This document shows, piece by piece, positions 1 to 14,729 of a stretch of 64,000 nt of DNA (position 1 is its first letter; every line of letters starts with the position of its first letter). The position numbers and the translations under genes were made by a program. The notes below the pieces were generated by a model that was not told the DNA's origin, ran no database searches, and saw only the letters and a program-made list of their open reading frames with translations. This stretch comes from Rhodoferax sp. OV413 (GTDB lineage Bacteria; Pseudomonadota; Gammaproteobacteria; Pseudomonadales; Pseudohongiellaceae), in NCBI GenBank assembly GCA_943330915.2, contig CALQJO020000005.1, positions 1-64,000 on the forward strand. The letters run 5' to 3'.

Positions 1-545
1 ATTGAGCCAATCTGCGCCAGCTCCGAGCAAATATATCCACTACCGGTTGCCACTGCGGCAACAACACCACCGACGGCCGCCGCCGCACTGCCCAGAAGCC
101 CGCGCGCCTGCTGCTGAATGGCATGACGCGCCGTGATGTGACCTACCTCATGCGCCAGCACTGCGGCCAGTTCGTCTTCACTTTTCAGGTACAGCAGCAA
201 CCCGCGGTTGATATAGACATAACCACCGGGCAGCGCAAATGCGTTAATTTCAGGGCTGTCTATGACTGTGAAGGTATAGGCAAGATCGGGGCGATGACCG
301 CCGGCCGCCACGCGTTGACCGACATCGTTAACGTAGGCCTTCAGTTGCGCATCCTCAATCACACGCATGGAGGCCATGACCTTGTCGTGCTCTTCCTTGC
401 CGATTTCAAGCTCGCGGCTTTCACTCATCAACACGATATTAGGCGTGCCGGTAGCAGGATTAACCGCACAGGCTTGTATACCCAGCAACCCGACAACAGC
501 CAACGCTATCAGCGGCGCTCGCCTGTTCACGAAGCGTCTAAGCAT
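1..545 (-). CDS. M48-family metalloprotease, lipoprotein (partial, 3' end outside window)
   Basis: Only the N-terminal 181 residues are present; the reading frame is still open at base 1. The zinc-binding helix HEVGH lies at residues 132-136, within a stretch (AHEVGHITARHA) typical of M48 peptidases such as BepA/LoiP, which act on outer-membrane proteins in the periplasm. A signal peptide ends in the lipobox-like IQAC, so Cys26 is the probable lipidation site. The ATG at 545 is preceded by a good ribosome site (AGGGGG) that overlaps the end of the upstream gene, four bases away. It is the last visible gene of a long minus-strand cluster, so a role in quality control or maturation of that envelope system is a reasonable inference. 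The third zinc ligand (a downstream Glu) is outside the window. Confidence 0.88.
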   Translation of the reverse strand, partial: MLRRFVNRRAPLIALAVVGLLGIQACAVNPATGTPNIVLMSESRELEIGKEEHDKVMASMRVIEDAQLKAYVNDVGQRVAAGGHRPDLAYTFTVIDSPEINAFALPGGYVYINRGLLLYLKSEDELAAVLAHEVGHITARHAIQQQARGLLGSAAAAVGGVVAAVATGSGYICSELAQIGS

Positions 546-549
546 GGTT

Positions 550-1239
550 TCAGTCCCCCTGTACAAACTGCTTGAGCTGATCGGCCAGGCTGCTGCAGGC
601 ATTGGCTTCAACACGGGCTATCAGTGGAATTGGTATAACAATCGCAGGAATATAAGTCTGACCAACAGCATCAGCGCTGATGGTGCCCACTTCGGTTGCG
701 GAGGAGATGTCCCAGACTCTTGCTTCGAAGCTGGAATCATCCTCCCAAGTAACGAAACCTACACAACCTCCGCCACCCGTTCCTAGACCGCAGCTCAACT
801 GACCCATCTCATTGGTGCGCTCTGTCTGACCATCCAGCCACACGATATAGCGCACACCTAGACCGGACATGATATCGGTGACCATGGGCTGAGCCATCAT
901 AAGTTGCAGATCTTCGTTGCGCTTCGGCGCCATGCGCGGCTCAAACCAGGGGAACATGGCATCAACAAATTGCTGCTCGGGAATCACATTGATAGCGTTG
1001 TCCCCACTCGCCATACGCTCCCCAACACATTCAACAAACTGGGAGGGGTCTGCATCGTTAGGACTCACGGGGGTGCGACCTAGAATCACCACGCTGTCTT
1101 CAGAGCTGATGCCGGTTGCACCTTGCCGGAACTCATCAATGGTGGTGGTGGTGCAAGCCTGAAAAACTGCCAGCATGCCAAGTAGGGTCATTGGCCTCAG
1201 CCATGCTGAGGGCATTAAAAAGCGAGCCTTGGTAATCAT
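550..1239 (-). CDS. Hypothetical envelope lipoprotein
   Basis: The 229-residue product starts with a hydrophobic signal segment ending at the lipobox VFQAC. I do not recognise the family. The middle (VRYIVWLDG) and C-terminal part (a conserved-looking AIVIPIPLIARVEANAC stretch) have the alternating strand pattern of small periplasmic lipoproteins of the CsgG/TolB-N type, but that is only an impression. A further in-frame start exists at 1296, yet it would run into the upstream gene. The ATG at 1239 has AGGAG six bases before it and was chosen. It sits between another lipoprotein gene and the M48 protease gene, all in one direction with gaps of 4 to 29 bases, so co-transcription is likely. Confidence 0.8.
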   Translation of the reverse strand: MITKARFLMPSAWLRPMTLLGMLAVFQACTTTTIDEFRQGATGISSEDSVVILGRTPVSPNDADPSQFVECVGERMASGDNAINVIPEQQFVDAMFPWFEPRMAPKRNEDLQLMMAQPMVTDIMSGLGVRYIVWLDGQTERTNEMGQLSCGLGTGGGGCVGFVTWEDDSSFEARVWDISSATEVGTISADAVGQTYIPAIVIPIPLIARVEANACSSLADQLKQFVQGD

Positions 1240-1268
1240 GCTGACTCCTGCTGATAAAAAATGCTCCG

Positions 1269-1970
1269 CTACTGCGATGAGCGGCGTTGCAACCAATCGT
1301 TTACATCCGGCACACCGGTGAAGCCCAATGAGAAATTAGACGCCAGATCACGCAGCGCCGCCACGGCAGCATCGTTGATGCCGCGCTCGGCAGTACTGAA
1401 CGAAGAAGCCGTTGCCTTGCCATACGCGGTCATCACCCAGTCTGCGATATACGATCCATCAACGCCGGTCAGACGCATGTTGTAACGCACCCAGACTTCA
1501 TACGAATCCAGCCGGGTTTTTTGCGGCATGCCCAACTGAAATTCATTAATGCGCGGGATAAACACCGCATCAACACCTTGCGCGGCCGCCGCTTCCAGCG
1601 AATCAAGCACCACAACGCGCTCAAACATGGCGGGCAATACGGTGTTGAACAGCACCTCATGGGTGTCTCCGGAGGTAACCAGATACTCTTCTTCACCGCT
1701 GTCAGTGAGTTCGGTATAGACAAAATCCGTCAGCCCTTCGCCGTAATAAACGCCCAGCACCAACGGAATGGCCGGAATATTGGGGCGCGGATAACTGCCC
1801 TCGACGTTGACGGTGCGTGCCGCACACGATGCCAGCGTCAGCAGCACCATCAGGCTAACCAGCAGCGGCTGCAAACGGCACAGGCTGAACACTGGTTTGG
1901 CCGTCCGCCTGCTCTGTGCAAGAACTGCGGCAGGGACTGCGTGGTTAACGCTAACTGTACAATTGCTCAC
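1269..1970 (-). CDS. Hypothetical envelope lipoprotein
   Basis: The 233-residue product has a long basic N-region, a hydrophobic core and a clear lipobox (LASC, about residue 49). The mature part has no motif I can name. It contains a predicted strand/helix alternation, with IPRINEFQLG and VWVRYNMRLTGVDG resembling the strand pairs seen in periplasmic lipoproteins that sense or bind partners. The start is a GTG at 1970 with AGGAG six bases upstream. The gene follows the second VWA gene after 38 bases. Together with the next gene it forms a pair of unlike lipoproteins inserted between the VWA genes and the protease, so an outer-membrane attachment role for the cluster is plausible but unproven. 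Confidence 0.8.
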   Translation of the reverse strand: MSNCTVSVNHAVPAAVLAQSRRTAKPVFSLCRLQPLLVSLMVLLTLASCAARTVNVEGSYPRPNIPAIPLVLGVYYGEGLTDFVYTELTDSGEEEYLVTSGDTHEVLFNTVLPAMFERVVVLDSLEAAAAQGVDAVFIPRINEFQLGMPQKTRLDSYEVWVRYNMRLTGVDGSYIADWVMTAYGKATASSFSTAERGINDAAVAALRDLASNFSLGFTGVPDVNDWLQRRSSQ

Positions 1971-2008
1971 CAGACACTCCTGTTCAACGTGTGAAATCGG
2001 AACCGGCC

Positions 2009-3022
2009 TTACTCATAGGAGTTAAGGCCCACAAAACTGCCACCGTTACGCTCCGCCAGTTCACGCATCAGGTTGGCGAACCGGTAAAGACTGTCCTGAT
2101 AGCGGGGATCGAGATCAAACAATACCGGAAATCCCACGGCGTGAATACGGACGAGACGACTTCCCTGATCATCGGCAGCATTTAAGCGGTCAACCGTCTC
2201 CACCACCCGTGTAATGGATCCGCCCGGTTGAAAGTCATCACCAAACACGTAAAGACTGATTTTCTGTCCCGGCGCATAAAAAGAGCTGATGGCGCGGGTA
2301 ATGCCTTCCACAGGGCTGCTGTTGCTGAACGGTGCCCAGTTGCGCAAGGTGCTGATGATTGCCTGCCGGCGCGCCGGGGTATCCGGAATCCACTGATTGC
2401 GATAGGCGGGGAACATGTAGTCGCCCATATCATTCATCACCTGAATGCCTTTGACTTCCGGGTAGATATCCAACACTTCGGTAATCATCGCCAACACCCG
2501 CGGCCAGGCGTTGTAGAACATACTGCCCGAGGTATCGATGATAAAAATAATGTATTCGCTGTCGACCGGCACTCCGCCAATGACGTTGTTGGTGCGGGTA
2601 AACTCGGTGCCCAGCAGGCGCTGCATCTCGTCAGTCAGTGACTGCCGGGCAATGGCCAGGCGGTTCTCTTCCTCAACCCGTTCATCCGCAATGTCGTTGG
2701 AGGTTTGAAAGCGGCCCTGAATGTTGGACATCTCCTGTTGCAACAATGCAATCCGGTCTCGATAGGCAGACAACTGTTCCCGTTTTGCGTCCAGATCTCT
2801 GTTCAAAATAGTGGTTTCACCGCGGATTTCAAACAAGGTTTCCTGCAGCGCGGCGATGGGCTGATCCAGCTGCACATCGGATTGCTCCAGCGTAACCGGG
2901 TCGGATGTCTCGGTAATCAACAGCAACAGAATCATGGCGCCAAATCCGCAGGAAATGACATCCAGAAAGGCGATGGTTGAACCCCCGCCGCCGTCACCCT
3001 GTTTTTTTGCGCGCCGTGCCAT
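2009..3022 (-). CDS. Membrane-anchored VWA-domain protein (second paralogue)
   Basis: The 337-residue product has a short basic, Gly-rich cytoplasmic start, one transmembrane segment at about 17-37 (with FLDVISCGFGA), a coiled-coil-like region at about 50-140 and a von Willebrand factor A domain to the end. The metal site DTSGS is at 163-167 and a later acidic FGDD supplies the third loop. The segment FLDVxSCGFGA is shared almost exactly with the neighbouring VWA protein, so the two are paralogues. The Asp inside the membrane segment (D21) is in the position expected for ExbD/TolR-type stators. The ATG at 3022 has a GGGAG site. A longer frame to 3193 would overlap the upstream gene and read through a 15-base tandem repeat, so it was rejected. 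Confidence 0.88.
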   Translation of the reverse strand: MARRAKKQGDGGGGSTIAFLDVISCGFGAMILLLLITETSDPVTLEQSDVQLDQPIAALQETLFEIRGETTILNRDLDAKREQLSAYRDRIALLQQEMSNIQGRFQTSNDIADERVEEENRLAIARQSLTDEMQRLLGTEFTRTNNVIGGVPVDSEYIIFIIDTSGSMFYNAWPRVLAMITEVLDIYPEVKGIQVMNDMGDYMFPAYRNQWIPDTPARRQAIISTLRNWAPFSNSSPVEGITRAISSFYAPGQKISLYVFGDDFQPGGSITRVVETVDRLNAADDQGSRLVRIHAVGFPVLFDLDPRYQDSLYRFANLMRELAERNGGSFVGLNSYE

Positions 3023-3047
3023 GATTACGCGACTCCCTCTGTTGATT

Positions 3048-3092
3048 GCATCGGTACTGACCGCATCGGTACTAACTGCATCGGTACTGACC
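3048..3092. repeat. 15-bp tandem repeat, three copies
   Basis: Three head-to-tail copies of GCATCGGTACTGACC (the middle copy differs at two bases) lie in the 130-base gap between the two VWA genes. In the frame of the downstream VWA gene the repeat reads STDAV three times, but this is upstream of the preferred start codon, so it is most likely untranslated leader. Confidence 0.9.
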
Positions 3093-3152
3093 GCAGCTTG
3101 AATGACTGTAACTGGATTACTTGAATGGCGTACTGACGTGTTGAGCGCTGCA

Positions 3153-4250
3153 TTATGGCCAGTCCCGTGAAGGGGTGATAAACGACCCGCCACTGCTTAA
3201 CGCCAGCTGCCAGAACGCAGCCGACGAGGCTGGGTCGCCTTCCATCGGCAGCAAAATAGTGTTCACCGGAATGTTTTGTGGCAACGCTTCCAGCGCGTCA
3301 CTGAACAGTCGCAGGCGATCTCGCGGCGATATGGTGCTGGCGCTGGACGGTCGGCTGCCCTGTGTTGGCAAACTGTCGGTAATCAGATACACGTTGTCCG
3401 GCGGGGGTGACATGGATGCAATCGCGCGGAACGCAGCTTCCAGATTATTGCCACCATCAGCACTGACCATCTTTAACTGACGGATGACTTCATTGAGCTG
3501 ATCCTGATCCGCCACTTCCAGCCATTCATCATTACTGCCTTCCAGCACACTGCTCACTGACTCGTTAAATGTCATCACCTGATATTGACTGACCAGCGGC
3601 AACTGGCTGCTGATCCACTCCACAATGCGCACGGCGCGCTGCCACTTGGGCGCATTACGCTTCACATCGTCGGCCATGTTGCGTGTGCGGATGATATTCA
3701 CCACCGTGTCGTCGAGCATGCTGGCGGAACTGTCCAGCAAAATCAGAATACGGTTACCACCCAGGAACATGCCGGTCAAATACTGACGGTCTCCGTCCCC
3801 AACAAATTCGCGGCTACTGACGCCGCGCTCTTCCACAGCACTCGCCTGCAGTCTGAGCAGCTCTTCTTCCATGGCCTGAATGTCGGCGCGCAACTGCTCA
3901 AGGCTTTCTTCTGTCGCCATCGAATTCCCTTCCATGGCCGCCAGCTGGGACATAAAGTCTTCGATATCACTTTGGACGCGCTCGGCCAGCCCCTGCGCTT
4001 CTACGACCTCCAGGTTGATTTCATTTAAGGTGTTGCGCACCTGAAACAGATTTTCCTCACCTTCACGCACGTCCACTTCCAGCATGGCGACTTCGGCACT
4101 GAGCAGGGGATTATTCTGTGTCCGGGCTTCAGTCACGTTATGGTCAATAATCAGGAACAATAAAATAGCCGCGCCAAACCCGCATGACATCACGTCCAGA
4201 AACGCCAGACTGATGGGGTCAAAATTGCTGCGCGACTTTCTCTTAGCCAT
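3153..4250 (-). CDS. Membrane-anchored VWA-domain protein (first paralogue)
   Basis: The 365-residue product has a basic N-terminus, a transmembrane segment at about 15-36 (FLDVMSCGFGAAILLF), a long charged coiled-coil-like stretch at about 50-140 and a VWA domain. The metal-site motif is DSSAS at 173-177. The second MIDAS position reads GGNNL where GGTNL is usual, and the third is ITDS. VWA domains bind protein partners through a metal ion, here most likely in the periplasm. The membrane Asp (D19) and the short cytoplasmic tail resemble ExbD/TolR. The gene overlaps the upstream Hsp70-like gene by eight bases, showing translational coupling. A VWA protein is certain; the stator role is inference. 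Confidence 0.9.
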   Translation of the reverse strand: MAKRKSRSNFDPISLAFLDVMSCGFGAAILLFLIIDHNVTEARTQNNPLLSAEVAMLEVDVREGEENLFQVRNTLNEINLEVVEAQGLAERVQSDIEDFMSQLAAMEGNSMATEESLEQLRADIQAMEEELLRLQASAVEERGVSSREFVGDGDRQYLTGMFLGGNRILILLDSSASMLDDTVVNIIRTRNMADDVKRNAPKWQRAVRIVEWISSQLPLVSQYQVMTFNESVSSVLEGSNDEWLEVADQDQLNEVIRQLKMVSADGGNNLEAAFRAIASMSPPPDNVYLITDSLPTQGSRPSSASTISPRDRLRLFSDALEALPQNIPVNTILLPMEGDPASSAAFWQLALSSGGSFITPSRDWP

Positions 4251-5646
4251 GGTTCAGGCCACCGTCATGCACATGGATACACTGCATGTCCGCGTTTATG
4301 GCGCCAAACCGGATCTGGTCGCCGGGCCGCAGAGCGCGTGTTGTGGTCACCGCGTCCCCATTAACCGTGAGGCCCTCACTGCGTGGCAGCAGTTGCGCGA
4401 CATCATCCTGCCTGCTAATCACACATACTTGCGTACCCGCGCTGCGGGAATTGTCTGCCGGGCCCATGGTTCTGATCACAACAGCGCAGTCTTGCTGCAG
4501 GCACACATCAACGGGCAGCGGCCAGGCAATACCCTCACTGAGCACATGGGTCACTGATCGCTGCGACACCGCTGGCGTCTGGCTGACGGATACCAGATTG
4601 ACTGAGAGCGGAGATTTCTCGTGCGAATGGCGCAGTGTGTCCAATGCCAGCACATTCAGAAAGGGCACCGTATCCGCGTGGCCAGCTGACGCAGGGCCGG
4701 TGTTAGCTGCAGCGCGCAGACACAGCGCTGCCAGTTGTTGCGGACTGACCTGATGATTCATCGCTGACAGACACTGCTGCAAACCCGGAATCAGTGCGGC
4801 ACGCCCTGATAACAGCACTGGCATCGACGGGTCGGTGATGATGCGCGTGGCATGCTGCGCCACTTTCTGAAACACCGGCTCTAGCGCGTCCAGCACATCG
4901 CTGAGGCTGATACGGGCCTGTATCGTATTGTTATCCGTCTGCACCCGCGCGATCAGTTCCTGATCTGCGTCATAGAAGTGCTGCAGCCAGAGCGGGATCT
5001 GGTTATACAACTGCTGTTCCCACGCCGCGCTGTGTTGCGGATTAAAGCGCGCCTGCGCCACAAACGCCTCGGTCGCGGTTTGTACCAGACTATTGGAGAT
5101 TGCCGTCCAGCCGGCACCCGCCACCACACTGACCGCATCGCGACGCACCACACTGCCGTCGGTGTGCAAACGCGTCAGGCTGAGCTGATGCAGCTGCACG
5201 TCGACGTAAAGCAATTCTGAATCTGCCGCCAGTTGATGGCTGGCGCTGACCAGCGCCGCATCCATCATGGCCACCGGCTTAAACGGGCTGTGTTTGAGCA
5301 CTCCGGTCAGCACCGCCAGTTGTTCGCGACTGAAACTGGCCGGCACGGCAATCACAATCTCGCCTTCAAAACCACTTTCCTGCGCCAGATGTAACAGGTG
5401 CCCGTGCGCCACGTCTGCGTAATGACGGAAATGCGCGACCGGTCGGGTCAAGGGCGTCATCCCGAGCCGGTGCCAGAATTCATTGTTGGTTCCCAACGGA
5501 TTAAGCCGGCTTTGTTCAGCGGCCTGTTGGCCAAACTGCACATGTTTTCCATTGACCAGCACATACCCCGGACTGCTGAACATCAGGCCGTCCTGGTTAT
5601 ATAAACCCAGCTGATGGTCATTCAGTTCCAGGACGGCTCTGCTCAT
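4243..5646 (-). CDS. Hsp70/actin-fold protein with FHA-like C-terminal domain
   Basis: The 467-residue product has the outline of an ASKHA ATPase: an opening LELNDHQLGLYN strand pair, a segment EIVIAVPASFSREQ followed by a DAAL helix (compare VPAxF and NEPTAAAL in Hsp70), a strand YVDVQLHQLSL where phosphate-2 residues normally lie, and VLLSGRAALIPGLQ like the Hsp70 adenosine motif. The Gly residues of the phosphate loops are poorly kept, so ATP hydrolysis is doubtful. The last 90 or so residues end in LTVNGDAV and LRPGDQIRFG, resembling the second half of an FHA fold. No signal peptide is seen, so it is probably cytoplasmic. It overlaps both neighbours by a few bases, tying it to the channel gene and the first VWA gene. 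Confidence 0.75.
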   Translation of the reverse strand: MSRAVLELNDHQLGLYNQDGLMFSSPGYVLVNGKHVQFGQQAAEQSRLNPLGTNNEFWHRLGMTPLTRPVAHFRHYADVAHGHLLHLAQESGFEGEIVIAVPASFSREQLAVLTGVLKHSPFKPVAMMDAALVSASHQLAADSELLYVDVQLHQLSLTRLHTDGSVVRRDAVSVVAGAGWTAISNSLVQTATEAFVAQARFNPQHSAAWEQQLYNQIPLWLQHFYDADQELIARVQTDNNTIQARISLSDVLDALEPVFQKVAQHATRIITDPSMPVLLSGRAALIPGLQQCLSAMNHQVSPQQLAALCLRAAANTGPASAGHADTVPFLNVLALDTLRHSHEKSPLSVNLVSVSQTPAVSQRSVTHVLSEGIAWPLPVDVCLQQDCAVVIRTMGPADNSRSAGTQVCVISRQDDVAQLLPRSEGLTVNGDAVTTTRALRPGDQIRFGAINADMQCIHVHDGGLNHG

Positions 5647-6527
5647 ACTGACGCTGCCTGTGGGTCATCCAGCGACTGGCGTGAACTGGCTCGTGTTCCG
5701 TTGCGCTCTCCGTTGCGCTCTCCGTTGCGCTCTGGCACCTGCAGGTAGGCGATCAGGTGGTCGTTGCAATAATTCTCGGAGTCCAGCACCAGACGGTCCT
5801 GGATCAGCGACAGCTGGTGCAACAGAAACATCAACAAAATGCTGGTGACCAGTGCCACAAACGTTGAGTTAAATGCCACCCCCAGACTCATGGTGACGCC
5901 CATGATGTCACCGTTGACGGCCTGTTGCGCCTGCCCAAGTGCCGTACCGATTCCGCGCACTGTGCCCAGGAAGCCGATCGAGGGAATCGCCCAGGCGATA
6001 TAACGCACAATTGACAGCTCGCTTTCCAGGCGGTCCGCCTCACTGTCGCAGACATTACGAATGGTTGCTGCCACATCCTGCACGCTGCGGGTGGTGCCAA
6101 ACCGGTGTAACCCCGACAGCACCGCGCGCGGCAACAAAAACTGCTGTTCATTGTCTGGTAGCGCCTGTACTGGCCGGGCAAAATTGCGCGCATCTTCTGG
6201 CAGGATGCTGGTACCCGCTGACACCTGCAGCAGCTCGCGCTCCAGCAGCGCGCGTTCCTTCATGGTGCGCGACGCTTTCATGCCAATGATGATCATGGCC
6301 CAGAAAAACAGAATGATGCAGGTTTCCTGCTCAAAATCGCGCAGCACAATATAAATGGACTGCTCGGGAACATAGGTGTCGTCGGCCTGCTGCAGCTCAG
6401 CCTGCTGATCCAGAATGATGTCGGCGTTGGGCCTGATGACCGCCACATACACGGCATGCACCACAATAATCACAATCACCAGTGCAAACAGTTGGTAGAT
6501 CACTTCGGAAAGGTACTTGTGTTTCAT
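5643..6527 (-). CDS. MotA/TolQ/ExbB-family proton channel protein
   Basis: The 294-residue product has hydrophobic segments at about 12-31, 69-84, 174-197 and 211-236. The family signature is clear in IPSIGFLGTVRGIG (181-194) and in the following segment SLGVAFNSTFVALVTS. Members form pentameric inner-membrane channels that use ion flow to move a partner with one membrane helix (ExbD, TolR, MotB). No ExbD or TolR gene is present; the VWA proteins two genes downstream are the candidates. The C-terminus carries three ERNG repeats encoded by a 12-base tandem duplication. The start ATG at 6527 follows a 51-base gap after the small exported protein gene, and the stop overlaps the next gene's start. 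Confidence 0.92.
   Translation of the reverse strand: MKHKYLSEVIYQLFALVIVIIVVHAVYVAVIRPNADIILDQQAELQQADDTYVPEQSIYIVLRDFEQETCIILFFWAMIIIGMKASRTMKERALLERELLQVSAGTSILPEDARNFARPVQALPDNEQQFLLPRAVLSGLHRFGTTRSVQDVAATIRNVCDSEADRLESELSIVRYIAWAIPSIGFLGTVRGIGTALGQAQQAVNGDIMGVTMSLGVAFNSTFVALVTSILLMFLLHQLSLIQDRLVLDSENYCNDHLIAYLQVPERNGERNGERNGTRASSRQSLDDPQAASV
5698..5733. repeat. 12-bp tandem repeat, three perfect copies
   Basis: CCGTTGCGCTCT occurs three times without a break and encodes ERNG repeats on the minus strand near the C-terminus of the channel protein. The identity of the copies points to recent duplication. Confidence 0.92.
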
Positions 6528-6578
6528 GCCTTGCTTCCTGCCCTGTGGCGCATCACATCGCCATGGTTGTTTGGGTTG

Positions 6579-6914
6579 TTAAATGTCGACCGGGAATGAC
6601 ACACCCAGATCCTGCGAAATCTGCTCAGACGGGATAAATCGTCCGTTGCTGCGCGCCCCCGGCTCGATGGGCTGGCTGTCGATATCCGGCAGGGGCTCCG
6701 CTGTGTCCTGCGCCGCCGCATCACCGGTTGCGGATTCTGTCTGGTTCTGCGCCTGGTCACCGGCGGGTTGCTGACTCTGGTTTTGTTCAGTCTGGCTGGG
6801 CGGCGGCTGCGTGCTTTGAGCAAACAGTGATGCAGACAGTGATGCAGACAGTGCGGCGCTGATCGCCATCACGGCCAGTAACAACCCGCTTGCCAGTCGA
6901 TTATGCCGTCTCAT
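6579..6914 (-). CDS. Small exported Gln-rich protein of the channel cluster
   Basis: The 111-residue product has a basic start and hydrophobic core at about 8-32 (signal peptide or single anchor), a Gln/Ser/Ala-rich low-complexity middle, and an ordered-looking C-terminus (RFIPSEQISQDLGVSFPVDI). That tail looks like a short linear binding motif, because the rest of the protein would be disordered. It lies two bases after the PEGA-SUMF1 gene and before the channel gene, so it is probably translated as part of the same transcript. I know no function for it. The signal region contains two copies of a 12-base repeat. Confidence 0.75.
   Translation of the reverse strand: MRRHNRLASGLLLAVMAISAALSASLSASLFAQSTQPPPSQTEQNQSQQPAGDQAQNQTESATGDAAAQDTAEPLPDIDSQPIEPGARSNGRFIPSEQISQDLGVSFPVDI
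6825..6848. repeat. 12-bp direct repeat, two copies, in signal-peptide region
   Basis: CAGTGATGCAGA is duplicated in tandem and a third partial copy follows. On the minus strand it encodes the repeated SASL in the exported small protein, lengthening its hydrophobic segment. Confidence 0.8.
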
Positions 6915-6916
6915 TG

Positions 6917-9031
6917 TCAGTCCCCCAGATACCGTGCAACACGAAAACCCAGATCATTACGGGCTTCTTCACCAAAGTCCCGGTAAGAGGGTCTTAACTC
7001 TGACATGGTGCCATGCGCCCAGCTCGAGCCCTTGATGGTGCGATAACGTCCCTCATCCGGCCCTAGCGGATCCGTTTCACGGACACTGCTCAGCCCACTG
7101 ACTGCGCCGTAGACATCATGCACCCATTCCGAGACGTTGCCGGCCATGTCGTAAAGACCGAGCGCCGATGGCGCAAACTCGCCAACATTGGAGGTTCCGG
7201 AATAGCGGTCATTCACTCCGCGCAGATATTGACCCAGAAAAGCCGCCGTGGATTCATCTGCAAAATTGCCGTATTCCGCGGTGGGAGGCCAATCGTCGCC
7301 CCAGGGGAATCGCCGTGTTCCGCCCTGGCCATCGGCCCGCGCTGCCCACTCCCACTCCGCCTCAGTCGGCAATCGGTAGCCGTTGGCATCTGCGTTGATA
7401 CCGGTCACCACGTCATTTTCAATCACATAAAACGCAGTCAGCGATTCCTGCGCGCTTAACCAGTTGCTGTACAGCGCTGCGTCCAGCCAGGTGACCTGCA
7501 CCACGGGCTGGTTGGCCAGATCCAGCGACACACCCTGTAAGGTGCCGGATGCATGCTCGGTACGGAAAAGCCGGAATTGCTCGTTTGTCACCGGATGCAG
7601 CGACAGATAAAACGGTTTTTCCATGTTGACATCACGCAGGGTTTCGTTGGCTCGACGGCCGGGTTCCCGTCGCGATGATCCCATGGTGTACGGGTAGGGA
7701 TTAAACAGTTGCAAGGTCTGTCCGCCGGCGCTGGTAATCACCGGTTGGATGGACTCCTGACGAGCCTGCTCCTCCGTCTTAAGTTGTACCCGAATTTCCT
7801 GATCAAGGCCGGGCCGCGAGGTGAAGTTAGCGGCGTAGGCAACAAAACCTTCTTTGCGGATCTCGATGCGCTGCGTCGCCGCAATCAGCTCGATGGTCTG
7901 GTTGGCGGCGCCCTTGAGTTCGCCATCAACATACAGTTCAGCGTCCGGCGGCTCGGCAATCACCCGCACCAGACTGGTGACCGGATCCAGCGCAACCGTG
8001 ATGTCCTGCTCCTGCTCAGCCACCGTGGTGATGGAGCGCGATGCCGTGTCAAATCCGGTGCGGAACAGCCGCACATCATGCGGCTGCCCCGGGGGCAGTG
8101 AAACCTCAAGCGGCGTTTGGCCGCGGAACTCACCGTTGATAGTGACGTTGGCATTGCCTGGCACCGAGCGGATAAACACCAGGCCATCGGCAGCTTCCAG
8201 CGCGACATCCGCCACACTGACATCCGCACCGGCAGTGACCTGCAGATCGTCTTGCCAGGCCTTATATCCGCTACGCTTCAGCGTAATGTCGTACGCGCCC
8301 TGCAATAACTCGAGGCGTGCCGGCGTAACTCCAAGCACCTCACCATTCACAATGATGTCGGCGCCGGCCGGCGAGGTGTTAAAACTCACCTGTGCCCAAG
8401 CCGGTGACATCAGCACATCCACGGACTGTTGTTGCAGCCGGCCGGCAACGTCCACCGTACCAGTGAAGTCCAGGTAGCGTGGCTGCTGCACCTGTATTGA
8501 ATAAGAGCCGGGCGCGACTTCGACGTCAGTGAGCGGACTGACACCCAGATCAACGCCATCCAGCAGCACCCGTGCGCCCTCCAAGACCTGACCGTTATCA
8601 CCGGTCACCTGCACACTGACCAGACCGGGACGCGGCAACAGCGGCAGTTCAAGGGTTTGCGCCTGTTCATCACTGATGCTGATGTCCGCCAGCAAATCAA
8701 AATAGCCTGGCGCACTGAGCTGAACCTGATACTCGCCAGAGCGCATCAGGTACCGCGGGCCGACCTGCACAGCGATGCCGCTGACAATATCAACCAGCGC
8801 ATCGGGCGGCGATACATCCAGGAATACGGAGCGTGCGGTCAACACAAACCAGGCCGGCACGCTCACCGCCAGCACGCCCAGACCAATCACGGCGTGATAC
8901 CAGCGCAGCGCCAGTGTTATGCGGTTTTGTGGCGGCGGGGGCGGAGAAAAATCGACCGGGATGATGATGTCGATCTGATCCAGAGACGGGATCTGACCGG
9001 CTTGTTCAGGTTTGCTCGGGTGTTCCTGCAT
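6917..9031 (-). CDS. PEGA-repeat protein with C-terminal SUMF1/FGE-like domain
   Basis: The 704-residue product has a Pro-rich cytoplasmic start, one transmembrane helix at about 46-66, about five PEGA-type repeats between 70 and 420 (for example AGADIIVNGEVLGVTP), and a SUMF1-like domain from about 440 (YTMGS, PVTNEQF, RLPTEAEWEWAAR, YDMAGNVSEWV). Active formylglycine-generating enzymes carry an essential cysteine pair near the C-terminus; here that site reads KGSSWAHGTMSEL and the whole protein has no cysteine, so it cannot be a copper-type FGE. The domain probably serves for binding. The topology places repeats and SUMF1 domain in the periplasm. It lies five bases from the TPR gene and two from the next gene, inside the cluster. 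Confidence 0.9.
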   Translation of the reverse strand: MQEHPSKPEQAGQIPSLDQIDIIIPVDFSPPPPPQNRITLALRWYHAVIGLGVLAVSVPAWFVLTARSVFLDVSPPDALVDIVSGIAVQVGPRYLMRSGEYQVQLSAPGYFDLLADISISDEQAQTLELPLLPRPGLVSVQVTGDNGQVLEGARVLLDGVDLGVSPLTDVEVAPGSYSIQVQQPRYLDFTGTVDVAGRLQQQSVDVLMSPAWAQVSFNTSPAGADIIVNGEVLGVTPARLELLQGAYDITLKRSGYKAWQDDLQVTAGADVSVADVALEAADGLVFIRSVPGNANVTINGEFRGQTPLEVSLPPGQPHDVRLFRTGFDTASRSITTVAEQEQDITVALDPVTSLVRVIAEPPDAELYVDGELKGAANQTIELIAATQRIEIRKEGFVAYAANFTSRPGLDQEIRVQLKTEEQARQESIQPVITSAGGQTLQLFNPYPYTMGSSRREPGRRANETLRDVNMEKPFYLSLHPVTNEQFRLFRTEHASGTLQGVSLDLANQPVVQVTWLDAALYSNWLSAQESLTAFYVIENDVVTGINADANGYRLPTEAEWEWAARADGQGGTRRFPWGDDWPPTAEYGNFADESTAAFLGQYLRGVNDRYSGTSNVGEFAPSALGLYDMAGNVSEWVHDVYGAVSGLSSVRETDPLGPDEGRYRTIKGSSWAHGTMSELRPSYRDFGEEARNDLGFRVARYLGD

Positions 9032-9035
9032 GGAT

Positions 9036-10532
9036 TCAGCGCCTGTCGACTGCAGCTACCTGCTCGTTGCAAGAAATGGTCAAAGGATTGAGCTGCTGGC
9101 CAAACCCTACCACAAACTCTTCCCGTACATCGCGATAACCGGGTCGGGTACCCACAGCAATGTAACGACCAGGTTTAAGTTCCAGGGTTGTTTCAGTAAA
9201 ACTGCCCAGTCGCCCCACCTGAAAAATAGTGACGTCGGTGGCGTTATTGGAGATCAACGTGAGCTGCACCGGTATCTGCATGTCTGCCAACAACTGGCGG
9301 GTACGCTCGATCTGACTTTGCAATCGCGGCCCCAAGGTCATCTCGTTGTCCTGCTGCAGATCGCTGGCCAGGTCTGTTGCAATCTGCAAAACGGCGTTGG
9401 CCTCCTCCAGCGCAGCACTCTCTGACAGCCGCAGCGGATTGTTGAGGTTAAGCTCCAGCAAATCATCCAGTTGCACGCGCCTTGCGGAATAATCGCGGCC
9501 TTCCTGGGCAAAGATCAGATTGCTGTCCAGTGCCAGAATAGCGTCATAGGCGGCGATGGCCTGTTGCCATTGCTCCGCACTTTCCAGCGACAAAGCCAGT
9601 GTGCGCTGGGTTTCAATCGCCCGCAGAGTAAGCTCCGTGCGGGTCTGATCAATGGCTTGCTGAGCCTGCTCGTTACCCGGCTTGATTTGCAGTGCGCGCT
9701 CAAACGCCACAATCGCCTGATCCGATTGCGACTGCTGTAACAGCGCAAAACCTTCCGACATCGCCTCGGTAAACTGTGCATCAATCTGCAGCTGTGCGTT
9801 GCGGGCCATCAGTTCGCTGATGCGGGGATGAGTACTGTCCAGCGCGCTTGCCTGCTCAAACAGCACCACTGCGGCGGCCAGATCACCGGCCGATTGCAGG
9901 CTGTCGCCCTCGGCCAGCAGACGCTCGACCTCGTCCAGCACCTGTGATCGACGCACACCGTCATCTGCAGCGGCGCTGGTTGGATCAATTTGCGCCGCCA
10001 GCGAAAAACTCGCCAGCGCGGTGGCCGCATCGGAAGTTTGCAGTGCCGCTTCGCCCGCTGTCATCAAACGCTCAAATTCCTGCGGCCGCCGCTGCTGTAA
10101 TTGCGCCAGCGCCTGATCAGCTTGCTGATAAGCCAGCGAGGCATCCGCAAAATTGGCGGCCCGGTAAAACTCATCACCACGGCGGGCACTGGCAACAGCA
10201 GCTTCATATTCCTGAGCGGCCCAGGCTGTCACATGGGTCACCTCCAGATCCGTCTGGCGCTCCAGCAGACTCGCCAGCGCATCCTGAGCGTCGCGACGCT
10301 GCCGGGCATTCTGTGCTTCTTCAAAGGGTGACATGGCAGGGCTGGCAGACTGAACCGCCGCCGGCGTTGCAGGTGTTTCAATCACGGGCTGCGAAACACG
10401 CGGCGTCAACGGTAATTCATACTGCTGCACAACATTGGGCAATACAAAAATTACTGCCAGCGCCAGCAGCACAAGCGCGGCTAACGCAACCCAGATCCAG
10501 GCGGATATTTTGTCGCTGCCGGCCGCCCGCAT
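9036..10532 (-). CDS. Inner-membrane TPR-like repeat protein
   Basis: The 498-residue product has an N-terminal transmembrane helix at about 10-31 and then a long helical region (about 75-390) with tetratricopeptide-like periodicity, for example ASFSLAAQIDPTSAAA and VAFERALQIKPGN. The end is a small strand-rich domain (LKPGRYIAVGTRPGYRD) resembling PEGA. This suggests a periplasmic scaffold that contacts the neighbouring PEGA-SUMF1 protein. The ATG at 10532 shares a base with the stop of the upstream gene (TGATG), which favours it over the in-frame ATG at 10583 inside that gene. Confidence 0.82.
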   Translation of the reverse strand: MRAAGSDKISAWIWVALAALVLLALAVIFVLPNVVQQYELPLTPRVSQPVIETPATPAAVQSASPAMSPFEEAQNARQRRDAQDALASLLERQTDLEVTHVTAWAAQEYEAAVASARRGDEFYRAANFADASLAYQQADQALAQLQQRRPQEFERLMTAGEAALQTSDAATALASFSLAAQIDPTSAAADDGVRRSQVLDEVERLLAEGDSLQSAGDLAAAVVLFEQASALDSTHPRISELMARNAQLQIDAQFTEAMSEGFALLQQSQSDQAIVAFERALQIKPGNEQAQQAIDQTRTELTLRAIETQRTLALSLESAEQWQQAIAAYDAILALDSNLIFAQEGRDYSARRVQLDDLLELNLNNPLRLSESAALEEANAVLQIATDLASDLQQDNEMTLGPRLQSQIERTRQLLADMQIPVQLTLISNNATDVTIFQVGRLGSFTETTLELKPGRYIAVGTRPGYRDVREEFVVGFGQQLNPLTISCNEQVAAVDRR

Positions 10533-11728
10533 CAGATACCGCCCGTTTCCGTCAGGTAGATTTCCATCAGGATCTCGCGCCATTGTTCATACTGTTCTTC
10601 AACCGTACCGGTCAGCATAATCTGCCGGTCATCCAGCTCGATGACTTTCGGTGCAACCTCAGCTTCCAGTGAAGCACTTAACTCGCTGAGCGCGGCAACG
10701 TGCATTTGTGCCTGCTGAGTCAGCTCAAATCCACTGCGCACCAGATACGCACCAGCGGCCACGCCGGTGATGCCGGCCATCTGCGCACCGGCGTTGTTCT
10801 GCCCGACAGCCGCGATGCCGCCGGCAAGGGCTGCAGCCCCGGTGATAAAGCGTCTGCGCGCTGAACGCTCAGCCTCTTCCAGTGCCAGGGTCTCGGTGAA
10901 ACTCAGTTCCCGCCAGGCATCATAGGGACCGCGCATCTGTCGGGCATAGGTGGCGTAATAATCCTGCACGGTGTCAACAAACAGGTTATCGCGCTCGCGG
11001 ATATCCAGAATGCGGATAAGTGCCGGGTCATTTTCTGCCGGCAGGCGCGTCAGTGTGGTAATTCCCCGTTCGTTTTCGGTCAGGTAACTGCCAAAAATGT
11101 CGGGGGCGAAGTTGGCAGCAAACTGCAGTTCAGACACGGTGCGCAGGGTACGCACCTGTTCGTCGGTGACTGAACTCTGACGGAAAGCCAGCAGATCATT
11201 GGCTATGTTGTTGTAAATCACCTGAAACGGATCATGAGACTGGCGCTGGGTCAGGTCATAGTTGTACTGGCTGATATGCTCTTCATAGTCACGCGTGTAC
11301 CAAAGGCGCCCGGTGGAATCGGTGACAGTGACCTTGATGATCATGCCTTCGCCATTGGACAGCAGAATCTGCCCATCCAGATAAACGTCCATGGTGGTTT
11401 GCGGGGCGGGCAATATTCTGACCACACCCCAGTTGCCGGAGCGCTGCAGGGTTTCTGCCATCAAATAGGGCGCGTAGCGTGACTCGGCCCGACGAATCTC
11501 CGGGTTGGTGCGGTCCAGATCATCTTCATCAATTTCATCGATACCCGGGTCAAATACCCGTATACCGATGTCCAACAACAAGGCTTCGTCCAATGGCACA
11601 TCGCCCTGCACGATTGGCACAAACTGCGTGGACTTGACCGATGTGGTGGCACAGGCGCCCAGTACCAGCATGAGCAGCACGCTGTAAATCTGCAATGGTT
11701 TGAAAAACTGCCTTATGGTTAACGTCAT
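10532..11728 (-). CDS. Hypothetical lipoprotein of the envelope cluster
   Basis: The 398-residue product has a signal peptide with lipobox LGAC (about residue 26). Its first half, with TMDVYLDGQI and KVTVTDSTGRLWYTR strands, resembles lipoproteins that build a CsgG-like alpha/beta domain. The second half has a predicted helical region and a Gly/Ala-rich stretch (FITGAAALAGGIAAVG) that could enter a membrane. I cannot name the family. The ATG at 11728 has AGGTGAG five bases upstream; the longer frame to 11773 overlaps the preceding gene. The stop overlaps the start of the TPR gene by one base. Confidence 0.8.
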   Translation of the reverse strand: MTLTIRQFFKPLQIYSVLLMLVLGACATTSVKSTQFVPIVQGDVPLDEALLLDIGIRVFDPGIDEIDEDDLDRTNPEIRRAESRYAPYLMAETLQRSGNWGVVRILPAPQTTMDVYLDGQILLSNGEGMIIKVTVTDSTGRLWYTRDYEEHISQYNYDLTQRQSHDPFQVIYNNIANDLLAFRQSSVTDEQVRTLRTVSELQFAANFAPDIFGSYLTENERGITTLTRLPAENDPALIRILDIRERDNLFVDTVQDYYATYARQMRGPYDAWRELSFTETLALEEAERSARRRFITGAAALAGGIAAVGQNNAGAQMAGITGVAAGAYLVRSGFELTQQAQMHVAALSELSASLEAEVAPKVIELDDRQIMLTGTVEEQYEQWREILMEIYLTETGGI

Positions 11729-11738
11729 ATAGCTCACC

Positions 11739-13007
11739 TCACTGCAAAATCCCTGTGTAACGTCGGTATTCATCCCAAAGTCTTTCGCGTAACTCAGGAT
11801 CGGGTTCGTTCATGGCGGCTTCGCGAATCTGTCGTGCAACCACATCGTCATTGTCGCCGCCCGGAATATCCTCAGGTACTGGATAAGCACCTTCTGCTTC
11901 TGCCGACGGGCCGCCCTGGCGTCCACCCATCGATCCACCCGAGCCACCCCCTTGAGGAGCCTGACCGGAATTGCTGGCAATCACGCCACCCGGCATAGCT
12001 GTGCCCTGTGGACCCTGTCCACCCTGGCCCTCGCCCTGGCCGGGTATCTGTACGCCCGGCAACCCTCCGGCGCCACCGGCCTGATTCCCTTCACTGTACA
12101 AGCCGGCCGGATCGCCACCTGCTTCGTTGCTTTGGCGCTGTGCACGGCTGCGCTCTGCCAGAATCAGACCATCAAAATCCTCATAACCGCGCCCCAGCGC
12201 TCCATCAAGCACGGCCACACGATCCTGAGACGTCATGACGCCGCCAACGCTACCACCGGGAATGCCTGCGCGACCGCTTGGCAAGCCTCCGGGGATTCCG
12301 CCACTACCTGTTCCGGGGAATCCGCCAGCGCCCGTTCCTGTGCCCTGCTGAGTGCCTGTTCCGCTGCCTGTGCCCGGCATTGCGCCGCCGACCGGCACAC
12401 CAGCAACAGTGACACCACCGCTGCCAATGGTCACTCCACCGGCGCCTATGCTGACGCCGTCAGTGCCAACACTGACGCCACCGGCGTTGACACTGCCAGT
12501 AATGCCGCCGTTACCATTGCCCGAGGCTGCTGATTGTGTACCGCCGCTGTTGCCTGATCTGGCACCGGCGGTACTGGCCGTACCCTGCGGCCCTGCCCCC
12601 GGCATACTGCTGTCACCGGGCAAGCTGCCATCGCCGGGTGTTGCAGGTCGACCCGAGCCGGCAGTGCCTGGCGTCATCTGGCCGTTGCTGGCGGATGTGC
12701 CCGACGAGGAACTGCTGCCTGTTGTGCTGCTTTGCGAGGAAGATGGGGTGCGCCCACTGGAAAAATCCGGCAATCCTGGCATGGATGCAGAAGCACGGGA
12801 TGACGAGCTTGACGATGAACTGGATGAAGAGCTGGAGCTGGAACTCGATGACGAACTGGATGGCGAGGGCATAGACGGCATCGACGACGATGGCATCGAT
12901 GGCATTTGCGGCATGCTGGACTGTGTCTGCTGGGTTGTCTCACATGCGCTCAGTAATGCGGCAGACAGCCCCATGGCAATAACCAGACGGTGTTGCAACA
13001 GTTTCAT
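11739..13007 (-). CDS. Low-complexity Ser/Gly-rich lipoprotein
   Basis: The 422-residue product has a signal peptide with lipobox LLSAC (Cys22). Residues 30-75 are Met/Pro/Ser repeats followed by 21 consecutive serines; residues 100-350 are Gly-rich with short repeats such as GGVTIGSGGVTVAG. Only the last 40 residues (VARQIREAAMNEPDPELRERLWDEY) look folded, as a charged helix. Such a protein is likely a flexible tether from the membrane lipid anchor to a small interaction helix. The Ser run uses all six codons. ATG at 13007 follows a GGA-type site; ten bases separate its end from the next gene. Confidence 0.85.
   Translation of the reverse strand: MKLLQHRLVIAMGLSAALLSACETTQQTQSSMPQMPSMPSSSMPSMPSPSSSSSSSSSSSSSSSSSSSSSRASASMPGLPDFSSGRTPSSSQSSTTGSSSSSGTSASNGQMTPGTAGSGRPATPGDGSLPGDSSMPGAGPQGTASTAGARSGNSGGTQSAASGNGNGGITGSVNAGGVSVGTDGVSIGAGGVTIGSGGVTVAGVPVGGAMPGTGSGTGTQQGTGTGAGGFPGTGSGGIPGGLPSGRAGIPGGSVGGVMTSQDRVAVLDGALGRGYEDFDGLILAERSRAQRQSNEAGGDPAGLYSEGNQAGGAGGLPGVQIPGQGEGQGGQGPQGTAMPGGVIASNSGQAPQGGGSGGSMGGRQGGPSAEAEGAYPVPEDIPGGDNDDVVARQIREAAMNEPDPELRERLWDEYRRYTGILQ
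12798..12860 (-). repeat. Poly-serine coding run, 21 codons, mixed codon use
   Basis: Twenty-one successive Ser codons (TCC, AGT, TCG, TCA, AGC and TCT all occur) lie near the start of the Ser/Gly-rich lipoprotein. The codon mixture argues that the protein sequence, not DNA slippage, is what is kept. Confidence 0.9.
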
Positions 13008-13077
13008 TTTTCCTTACTCCACCTGCACGCAGCAGATCGATGATGGTGCCTGAGTCTCAGACAATTTGTCCGGGCCA

Positions 13078-14562
13078 TTATTGCGCTTCATTCAAATCAG
13101 ATTCAATGCCAGCCGATGTATTGTCTGTGACCGCTGCAGAATCCACAGCGGTTTCTGAATTCTCTTCACCGCCAGTGAAGCGCTCCGGATCATACGGAAA
13201 ACGATATACCAGGCCTCGGGTAATATCCGGTGTGCCGTCCCGTAGCGCAGGCCTGAGCACACTGCCACGCAGAGCCATCACCATATTGCGCCTGACGTTC
13301 TCGTTAATCTCGCTTGATGACTCCATCAGCTCAACATTGGTCACCCTGCCATTGCGGGTCAGGTCAAAGCGCATGGTTACCCATGGCCAGGACTGACGCG
13401 GCTGTGCACGCACGGACCGCGTTGCTGAAAACGCGGTGGCCATGGCGATAGAACTGCCCTGCGCCAATTCCATGGTTTGCTCCGGTTGCATAAAATTTTC
13501 AAAACTCGGAATTAATACCATGCGATCAAATACGTCTTTTTTCAGCGCGTCATCTTCGCTGGCCAGCAGTTCCCAGGCTTGCTCATAAACACTTTCTGCT
13601 CGCTGTCTGCGATCAAACAGCAGATTCCAGTCAGCCATGTCCAGTACTGCTTCTGCATGCAGCTTGCGCATTTCGCGCTGAATTGACGAACCGGGTGTCG
13701 ACTCCCCGACCCTTTGCTCTCTCATGGCAATGATCTGCCCGAGCACAAATTCGCCTTGCAGAAAGGGGTTGTTATGCTGCCGGTATTCCCCCGCAGTGAT
13801 TCTATCCGCCCACTCATCATCCACCTGGCGCGTTTTGGCATACAGTGTTTCTGGTCGGTTCTGCACACCAGTTCTGTGCATCAGCCAGGACAGATAGGCC
13901 AGGCGGTGCAGGTAGCGCTCACGTGGATAGTTCTCCGGCTGCGGCTGAGCATCCACCAGACTCATTGCCACACTGTACAAACGGTAGGCATCAATCAGAC
14001 GCGCTGAAGGTAACTCTCCGCGCTGATCAGCAAACGCATTCAGATGCCATTCTGCATAACTCAGCAAGGCCGGAATCAACTCCGGATTACCATCGCCGAG
14101 ACTGCGGCTGTGAATGTAGAAGTGGTACTGCTCGAGACTGTCCGCCTCTGGCCATTCACCAAGCGCCAAATGACTTTGTACCTGCATTTTGATAGCGGGG
14201 CCTTGTTCAAGGCTGAACAGCCCGTGATTGACCCGACTGATGTGGACTGCGCGCTCAAGCATAACCAGCGCTTCTGTATGTTTGTCCTCCGCTTGCAGCA
14301 GCCGGGCCAGACTGATCATGGACTCCGCGATCATCGGGTGCCAGGTATCGCCAGTGGCTTCCAACGTTGCAACGGCTTGTTCGAGGCGCTCTTGTTCTGT
14401 CTGTTGCCCGGTGAGTTCCTGAGCTGAAACGGACCAGGGCAAGAACAAACCCAGTATCAGGCTGATGCGCCGCATCAAGCGGCCGCAGTATGTCAGCTGC
14501 GCGCTAAAACAGGCCGTCCATTGACTGGGAATTTTGTCGCTCGAACAACGTCGCAAACGCAT
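13078..14562 (-). CDS. Exported TPR-like protein with TonB-type C-terminal domain
   Basis: The 494-residue product contains a signal-peptide-like segment (MRRISLILGLF, cleavage after SVSAQ), a helical region with TPR-like spacing at about 60-350, and at about 400-470 a domain like the TonB C-terminus (MRFDLTRNGRVTNVEL, VLRPALRDG, VYRFPY). It has no obvious retained anchor, so it is probably periplasmic. The start is uncertain: ATG at 14562 has GGAG at ideal spacing, while ATG at 14475 starts directly at the signal peptide but lacks a good site. It is the first gene of the minus-strand cluster and is divergent from mutM. Confidence 0.78.
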   Translation of the reverse strand: MRLRRCSSDKIPSQWTACFSAQLTYCGRLMRRISLILGLFLPWSVSAQELTGQQTEQERLEQAVATLEATGDTWHPMIAESMISLARLLQAEDKHTEALVMLERAVHISRVNHGLFSLEQGPAIKMQVQSHLALGEWPEADSLEQYHFYIHSRSLGDGNPELIPALLSYAEWHLNAFADQRGELPSARLIDAYRLYSVAMSLVDAQPQPENYPRERYLHRLAYLSWLMHRTGVQNRPETLYAKTRQVDDEWADRITAGEYRQHNNPFLQGEFVLGQIIAMREQRVGESTPGSSIQREMRKLHAEAVLDMADWNLLFDRRQRAESVYEQAWELLASEDDALKKDVFDRMVLIPSFENFMQPEQTMELAQGSSIAMATAFSATRSVRAQPRQSWPWVTMRFDLTRNGRVTNVELMESSSEINENVRRNMVMALRGSVLRPALRDGTPDITRGLVYRFPYDPERFTGGEENSETAVDSAAVTDNTSAGIESDLNEAQ

Positions 14563-14729
14563 ACTGGGCTCTCCGGCGTGGGAATCCAACTCTATATCGC
14601 GCTGAAATTATTTCCTATCTCATTTCTATGACAAACTATCGCGAGAATAGTACCGGCGGTAGCAAACATTTAATTCGCAGCGCTTCACTCTCTTGCCCTT
14701 GGCCAAACGAAAACCAGAGTACTCAGTCA

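Follow-up and report, generated by a model that had tools for sequence, protein, structure and literature searches.

Do the thirteen closely packed genes at the beginning of this contig encode the parts of a single machine of the cell envelope, and what would drive such a machine? The window (the whole stretch of DNA that was analysed, 64,000 nucleotides) starts at the first base of contig C5 (G000:C5:1-64000), in a genome of 2,889,826 bases and 127 contigs.

Layout of the locus

In the ORF listing, 13 minus-strand ORFs occupy 3-14589; with gene starts corrected by comparison with relatives, the gaps and overlaps between them are small, as a sequence-only reading of the same DNA had described. 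In transcription order and with the corrected starts, the inter-gene gaps are 70, 10, -52, 4, 2, 51, -4, -8, 130, and 38 bases; the sizes of the LPb-LPa and LPa-M48 junctions rest on uncertain starts, the position used for LPa not being a start codon. Relatives place the start of VWA2 at 3022 instead of 3193 and that of LPc at 11728 instead of 11773; the TPR protein probably starts at 10532, and the first gene of the block most likely at 14475. The divergent gene at 14628 encodes an Fpg-type DNA glycosylase, and therefore the block ends there. On the other side, the M48 gene is truncated by the contig start (a relative in locus L148 has 492 aa), and genes past M48 are invisible in the source genome. 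The genes are as follows:

13078..14475, minus strand: TPR/TonB, accessory; an exported TPR protein whose end weakly resembles TonB-C (start by inspection; the listed ORF extends to 14589)
11739..13007, minus strand: SER, predicted lipoprotein rich in Ser and Gly, of low complexity over a long stretch and with a motif conserved at the C-terminus
10532..11728, minus strand: LPc, predicted lipoprotein with a TolB-N/PelC/CsgG/FlgT-like domain and a long helical hairpin (from the predicted structure)
9036..10583 (likely start 10532), minus strand: TPR protein with one N-terminal membrane helix (TPR_2, E 3.1e-11)
6917..9031, minus strand: PEGA/SUMF1, a Cys-free FGE/SUMF1 domain together with PEGA repeats and a single membrane-helix-like segment
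6579..6914, minus strand: SMALL, short exported low-complexity protein with the end VSFPVDI
5643..6527, minus strand: TolQ-type channel subunit (PF01618), extended at the N-terminus by a long part that contains further membrane segments
4243..5646, minus strand: HSP, fold of the Hsp70 nucleotide-binding domain, FHA-like C-terminus, ATP motifs lost
3153..4250, minus strand: VWA1, one membrane helix with Asp, a coiled-coil-like stretch, and a VWA domain
2009..3022, minus strand: VWA2, paralogue of VWA1 with identical layout
1269..1970, minus strand: LPb, predicted lipoprotein, accessory
550..1296, minus strand: LPa, predicted lipoprotein, accessory, start uncertain
3..545, minus strand: M48 peptidase lipoprotein with a BepA-like N-terminal part, accessory (PF01435; the listed ORF extends to 614)

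In the 130-base gap between VWA1 and VWA2 (3023-3152), the longer reading frame codes for a repeated AVSTD unit. Across the best 80 named loci of at least 571 relatives, the median spacing of these two genes is 0.

Conservation of gene order

VWA1 is present in 38 of 56 genomes (the source genome counted): all 35 genomes of its own family, and 3 of the 21 from other families of the order. Each of these 38 has at least two VWA matches, the second being VWA2, which adjoins the first except at contig breaks. The order SER-LPc-TPR-PEGA/SUMF1-SMALL-TolQ-HSP-VWA1-VWA2 recurs, and is mostly kept in the 27 fetched loci, some others being cut by contig ends; L046 and L068 are rearranged, with the channel and LPc on the opposite strand, and L065 and L066 have only the portion from SMALL onward.

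Our scan of named genomes gave at least 571 relatives, and the best 80 were kept as loci. VWA1 adjoins VWA2 in 80/80 of them. Among these best 80 of at least 571, with loci that reach contig ends included, we found VWA2 in 80, HSP in 75, TolQ in 72, PEGA in 70, SMALL and TPR in 69 each, LPb in 60 (in one of them on the other strand), LPc in 60, SER in 57, LPa in 53, M48 in 47, and TPR/TonB in 43. More than 8.5 kb upstream of VWA1 is available in 58 of the best 80, and among those 58 the counts are 58 each for TolQ and VWA2, 57 each for SER, LPc, TPR, and PEGA, and 56 each for SMALL and HSP. The earlier proposal to follow the gene order into other genomes thus finds the genes staying together, each core gene in 56-58 of 58 loci with long upstream sequence.

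By record titles, which for metagenome bins can be wrong, 13 of the best 80 of at least 571 come from other groups: five from Acidobacteria (Thermoanaerobaculia in one case), six from Desulfobacterota-type or unspecified Deltaproteobacteria, and one each from Myxococcales and Gemmatimonadetes. HSP, VWA1, and VWA2 are present in 13/13 of these, and the core is present in the longer ones. Two bins titled Klebsiella pneumoniae (L069 and L110) carry the gene set and are very likely mistitled. In L115, L116, L120, L130, L134, L142, L088, and L091, all titled outside Gammaproteobacteria, we did not find LPb, LPa, or M48, so these three genes seem to have been added to the core; they are likewise missing from some gamma loci (L081, L112, and L113).

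Neighbouring genes served as a control. The best 80 loci of at least 571, 61 of which extend more than 3 kb past the end of the set, contain 854 ORFs of at least 150 aa that do not belong to it, and the commonest family among these occurs in 24/80 loci. A control with upstream neighbours (Fpg, CoaD, and others) was discarded, as they lie beyond the 10-kb flank. A weaker control used the region downstream of M48 in L148, from which the five longest ORFs were taken (not all of them certain genes): the nearest was found in 10/80 loci (best 80 of at least 571), and the rest only in L148. Since the order is kept in distant genomes and outside families reach only 24/80, the association of the genes goes beyond chance. 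A chance neighbourhood of unrelated genes is ruled out by this synteny and the neighbour control.

Co-occurrence across genomes

In one draw of class genomes, VWA1 occurs in 31 of 369. The TolQ profile matched 35 of the 369 at E <= 1e-20; four of them match weakly (E 1e-23 to 1e-26); the remaining 31 genomes (E 2.4e-70 or better) are exactly the 31 with VWA1. LPc occurs in 27 of the 369, 26 of them among the 31 motor genomes, and its profile is unmatched in five of those 31 (G142, G267, G366, G368, and G371). One LPc relative (G239:C1:1845944-1847101) is found in a class genome with neither VWA1 nor this TolQ subfamily; it may have its own function there, or be a remnant.

Of the 30 sampled loci (source locus left out), 28 contain TolQ and 27 contain VWA2; a contig end cuts all three loci without VWA2, and in the two without TolQ (G366 and G267) the channel gene is on another contig. 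One family (L166, L169, and G267) has the channel gene after VWA2 or on another contig, with the VWA pair still present. A draw from the phylum gave matches in 15 of 398 genomes, 12 of the 15 from one family outside the class. Synteny and co-occurrence together strongly support a single, co-inherited envelope machine; the sequence-only reading had proposed that the genes form one machine.

The channel, the VWA pair and ExbD

The channel subunit matches MotA_ExbB (PF01618) with 53.2 bits (E 3.3e-14; cut-off 22.9), which bears out its assignment as a TolQ-type channel; against the TolQ equivalog TIGR02796 it reaches 28.4 bits, far below the cut-off of 221, and a search of its profile against PDB sequences gave no convincing match. 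T189 and T222 are invariant in 12 aligned sequences, and the GT and NST motifs occur together in 122/125 sequences (identical sequences were removed before motifs were counted). We take these threonines, present in both pore segments, to be the equivalents of those in TolQ and ExbB, in agreement with the published account.

Both VWA assignments also hold: VWA1 matches Pfam VWA_2 (E 2.4e-7), and VWA2, which has no VWA match in Pfam, is identified by its similarity to VWA1 and its DxSxS motif. Each protein has one N-terminal membrane helix with FLDxxxCGFGA or a close variant. With a relaxed motif, the helix Asp is found in 132/133 VWA1 sequences (the lone exception, L173, is a fragment) and in 129/129 VWA2 sequences, and DxSxS in 131/133 and 128/131, respectively. 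The VWA1 profile gave coiled-coil-like matches among PDB sequences.

Because the Asp helix is present in both proteins and no ExbD is found on contig C5, we consider it most likely that the VWA pair forms the inner dimer in a proton motor of the 5:2 type, which makes the two proteins the likely equivalents of ExbD/TolR; the earlier description of them as anchors is kept in part, since they would be more than that. A 2025 account (PMC12204202) describes tolQ-like genes with paired, different VWA proteins that have a TolR/ExbD-like helix with a pore-helix Asp, in an arrangement given there without TolR, and in the motor core as modelled there with AlphaFold3 such helices lie inside the pore. By this account the motor core is already a known prediction. 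The label "undescribed" consequently no longer fits the core, but still fits the wider gene set that travels with the motor, which was not found described in the literature searched (PMC12204202 being the closest relevant paper).

The source genome has four ExbD matches, none of them on contig C5. A weak ExbD profile (three sequences) found matches in the fetched stretches of none of the 27 loci considered above, of 2/80 named loci (best of at least 571), and of 3/30 sampled loci, and the ExbD genes found there lie far from the VWA genes. In L158, L160, and L164, all from a single family among the sampled genomes, the fetched stretch includes an ExbD gene downstream of M48. A genome-wide search found ExbD genes in 8/8 genomes of distant relatives; ExbD genes are expected for Ton and Tol systems.

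For one ExbD gene of the source genome, located on contig C2, there is no MotA_ExbB match elsewhere on the contig and none within 1.5 kb. This ExbD could serve our channel, the VWA proteins then being attached TonB-like transducers and not the inner dimer, and the hhalign result for the VWA and ExbD helices would agree with this, since it is not significant (P 0.015 and 0.13, probability 2.9% and 0.5%; 38 columns, 3 ExbD sequences). We consider this quite improbable, given that the Asp is present in nearly all VWA helices, that both VWA proteins accompany the channel, and that the model published in PMC12204202 puts such helices in the pore. Pairing of the channel with an ExbD encoded elsewhere, which the sequence-only reading had named as a counter-case, is made unlikely; what is left of it is the C2 gene, without MotA_ExbB on its contig.

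Putative scaffold, lipoproteins and the Hsp70-like protein

The PEGA/SUMF1 protein matches Pfam PEGA (five stretches) and FGE-sulfatase, and has zero cysteines over its whole length, as first read; among 112 relatives, the last 260 residues contain no or one Cys in 106, and two to four in six. An active formylglycine-generating enzyme was rejected for lack of the two catalytic cysteines. The best NCBIfam model for the SUMF1 domain is GldK (TIGR03525; 94.2 bits, far below its cut-off of 350), the GldJ model is also among its matches, and against PDB sequences FGE enzymes (64 bits) score above PorK (51 bits). PMC12421860 describes PorK as using a Cys-free FGE fold as a docking hub in a ring.

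These GldK and GldJ matches, together with the VWA domains of the Myxococcus gliding proteins CglB and CglD (described in PMC4488436), raise the alternative of a machine for gliding or for moving adhesins, comparable to Myxococcus Agl-Glt or the gliding apparatus of Bacteroidota. We regard it as unlikely: no adhesin was recognised in the set, and the Agl motor, as described in PMC4488436, has the TolR/ExbD homologues AglQ and AglS, whereas no ExbD match is found on C5.

The TPR/TonB protein has matches to TPR_12 (E 2.1e-5) and TonB_C (PF03544; E 0.03), both under the cut-offs; the TonB likeness named in the sequence-only reading is weak.

The LPc structure model has a mean pLDDT of 77.6. Foldseek gave TolB at E 2.4e-3 (prob 1.00) and no match at E <= 0.001, and VIA-align gave PelC (Z 8.4, 111 residues, 2.1 A), CsgG (Z 8.2, 131 residues, 3.4 A), and FlgT (Z 8.6, 134 residues, 4.2 A), Z values in a range (6-9) that VIA-align itself labels common. 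Residues 43-190 align with PelC, CsgG, FlgT, and TolB N-domains; residues 230-358 make up a helical hairpin, a common arrangement, that can be aligned with coiled-coil and pore-forming proteins. The hairpin has a Gly/Ala-rich stretch. Searches of the LPc, LPa, and LPb profiles against PDB sequences found no convincing match. A lipobox-like motif is present in 87/98 LPc, 75/94 SER, 82/91 LPb (C49 invariant in 10 aligned), and 61/81 LPa sequences (C48 invariant in 9 aligned). The C-terminal motif of SER lies around DD[IV]VARQ[IL]REAA, in strict form in 62/94 sequences and in looser forms in the other 32. In SMALL, the F, P, D, and I of the end are invariant in 15 aligned sequences, and the exact VSFPVDI is found in 65/114, the remainder being mostly close variants; a search for the SFPxDI end in other proteins gave no second match, and the DNA pattern for this end occurs once in the source genome. 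The M48 protein matches PF01435 (Peptidase_M48; E 1.3e-24) and the BepA model with 104.7 bits (cut-off 570).

A force transducer of the Tol-Pal kind, in which the VWA domains and lipoproteins would stabilise or tether the envelope by pulling its layers together, with no export, would account for the TolB-N-like domain of LPc, the several predicted lipoproteins with long flexible stretches, and the BepA-like M48 protein. Presence in 31 of 369 class genomes is unlike a general housekeeping role, and the channel lies far from TolQ proper (28.4 bits against 221), so this alternative is doubtful, yet the most credible of the three that we weigh.

The HSP structure model (mean pLDDT 86.2) aligns with the Hsp70 nucleotide-binding domain over 314 residues (VIA; Z 29.5, 2.7 A). 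Its only Pfam match is FHA, below threshold; the FHA-like end is found by profile comparison (E 5.7e-4), and looks closer to canonical in L088 and L134. Both halves of the earlier Hsp70/FHA-like assignment are therefore supported by profile and fold comparison, though FHA stays sub-threshold in Pfam. Hsp70 proteins bind phosphate through the motifs DLGTT and DLGGGT. Both are absent from an alignment of 17 HSP sequences, with LELND- and VDVQLH-like sequences in their place.

A proposed machine

Known tasks of 5:2 motors are to drive flagella and gliding, to energise nutrient uptake and type IX secretion, and to maintain the outer membrane. We propose, with a probability of roughly 0.6, that the locus encodes a trans-envelope machine driven by such a proton motor, with VWA1 and VWA2 as its inner dimer. 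Judging from the family, five TolQ-type subunits would form a channel in the inner membrane, with one VWA1 and one VWA2 helix inside it as the dimer. Protons passing the helix Asp and the channel Thr would turn the dimer against the pentamer (a published prediction, which the conservation supports), and the coiled-coil stretches would pass the motion to two unlike periplasmic VWA domains. The PEGA/SUMF1 and TPR proteins may form a periplasmic scaffold, with the Cys-free FGE domain as a docking hub like PorK; LPc and the other lipoproteins, from the fold, may form a ring or plug on the outer-membrane side that gets moved; and SER and SMALL are putative flexible tethers with terminal docking motifs. 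On the cytoplasmic face, the Hsp70-fold/FHA protein might fix the pentamer and keep it from spinning freely, which makes HSP, among the concrete targets that the gene set offers, a candidate for the type of cytoplasmic anchor that PMC9389320 proposed for GldL, where its identity was left open.

The predicted task is likely mechanical work at the outer membrane, e.g., export or assembly of surface material. A fuller version, which we offer tentatively, is a ring-and-motor machine on the T9SS principle in proteobacteria and some other phyla, in which a heterodimeric VWA shaft would drive a Cys-free FGE hub and a lipoprotein ring with a helical pore-like hairpin and so export or move surface material, with the degenerate Hsp70/FHA protein as cytoplasmic anchor of the channel. 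If true, a further 5:2 motor, in which the two shafts differ and some nine core parts are kept in distant lineages, would extend the class.

Comparison with known systems

The anti-phage system Zorya was considered and rejected: the ZorA model reached 16.3 bits, and there was no other PADLOC match (10 of the 13 proteins). Tol-Pal shares a TolQ-related channel and, through LPc, the TolB-N-like domain, but no TolR, TolA, or Pal was recognised among the 13 proteins. The ring lipoproteins of the outer membrane of the PelC/CsgG/FlgT type have a domain similar to that of LPc, which adds a long helical hairpin and whose ring is only predicted.

The TPH-vWA/TolQ motor (Idiomarina type), as described in PMC12204202, likewise has a TolQ-like channel beside an unlike pair of VWA proteins with Asp helices, and no TolR/ExbD; the two loci are likened by description. 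Section 8 of PMC12204202 makes no mention of FGE, Hsp70/FHA, SER, SMALL, or LPc genes, and a TPR gene is named there for its other VWA family. What is new here is the link of the motor to a Cys-free FGE-fold protein, LPc, an Hsp70-fold/FHA protein without ATP motifs, and two low-complexity exported proteins.

GldM and SprA of the T9SS had no match in the source genome, and control genomes gave none either. In T9SS (PorKLMN/GldKLMN), as predicted here, a proton motor is combined with an FGE-fold protein without catalytic cysteines and with lipoproteins on the outer-membrane side; here, in contrast, the shafts would be two VWA proteins, and PEGA repeats and a membrane-helix-like segment are part of the FGE protein. 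The best reading, by analogy, is that the gene set is not a member of T9SS but would work, in outline, like the T9SS ring-motor.
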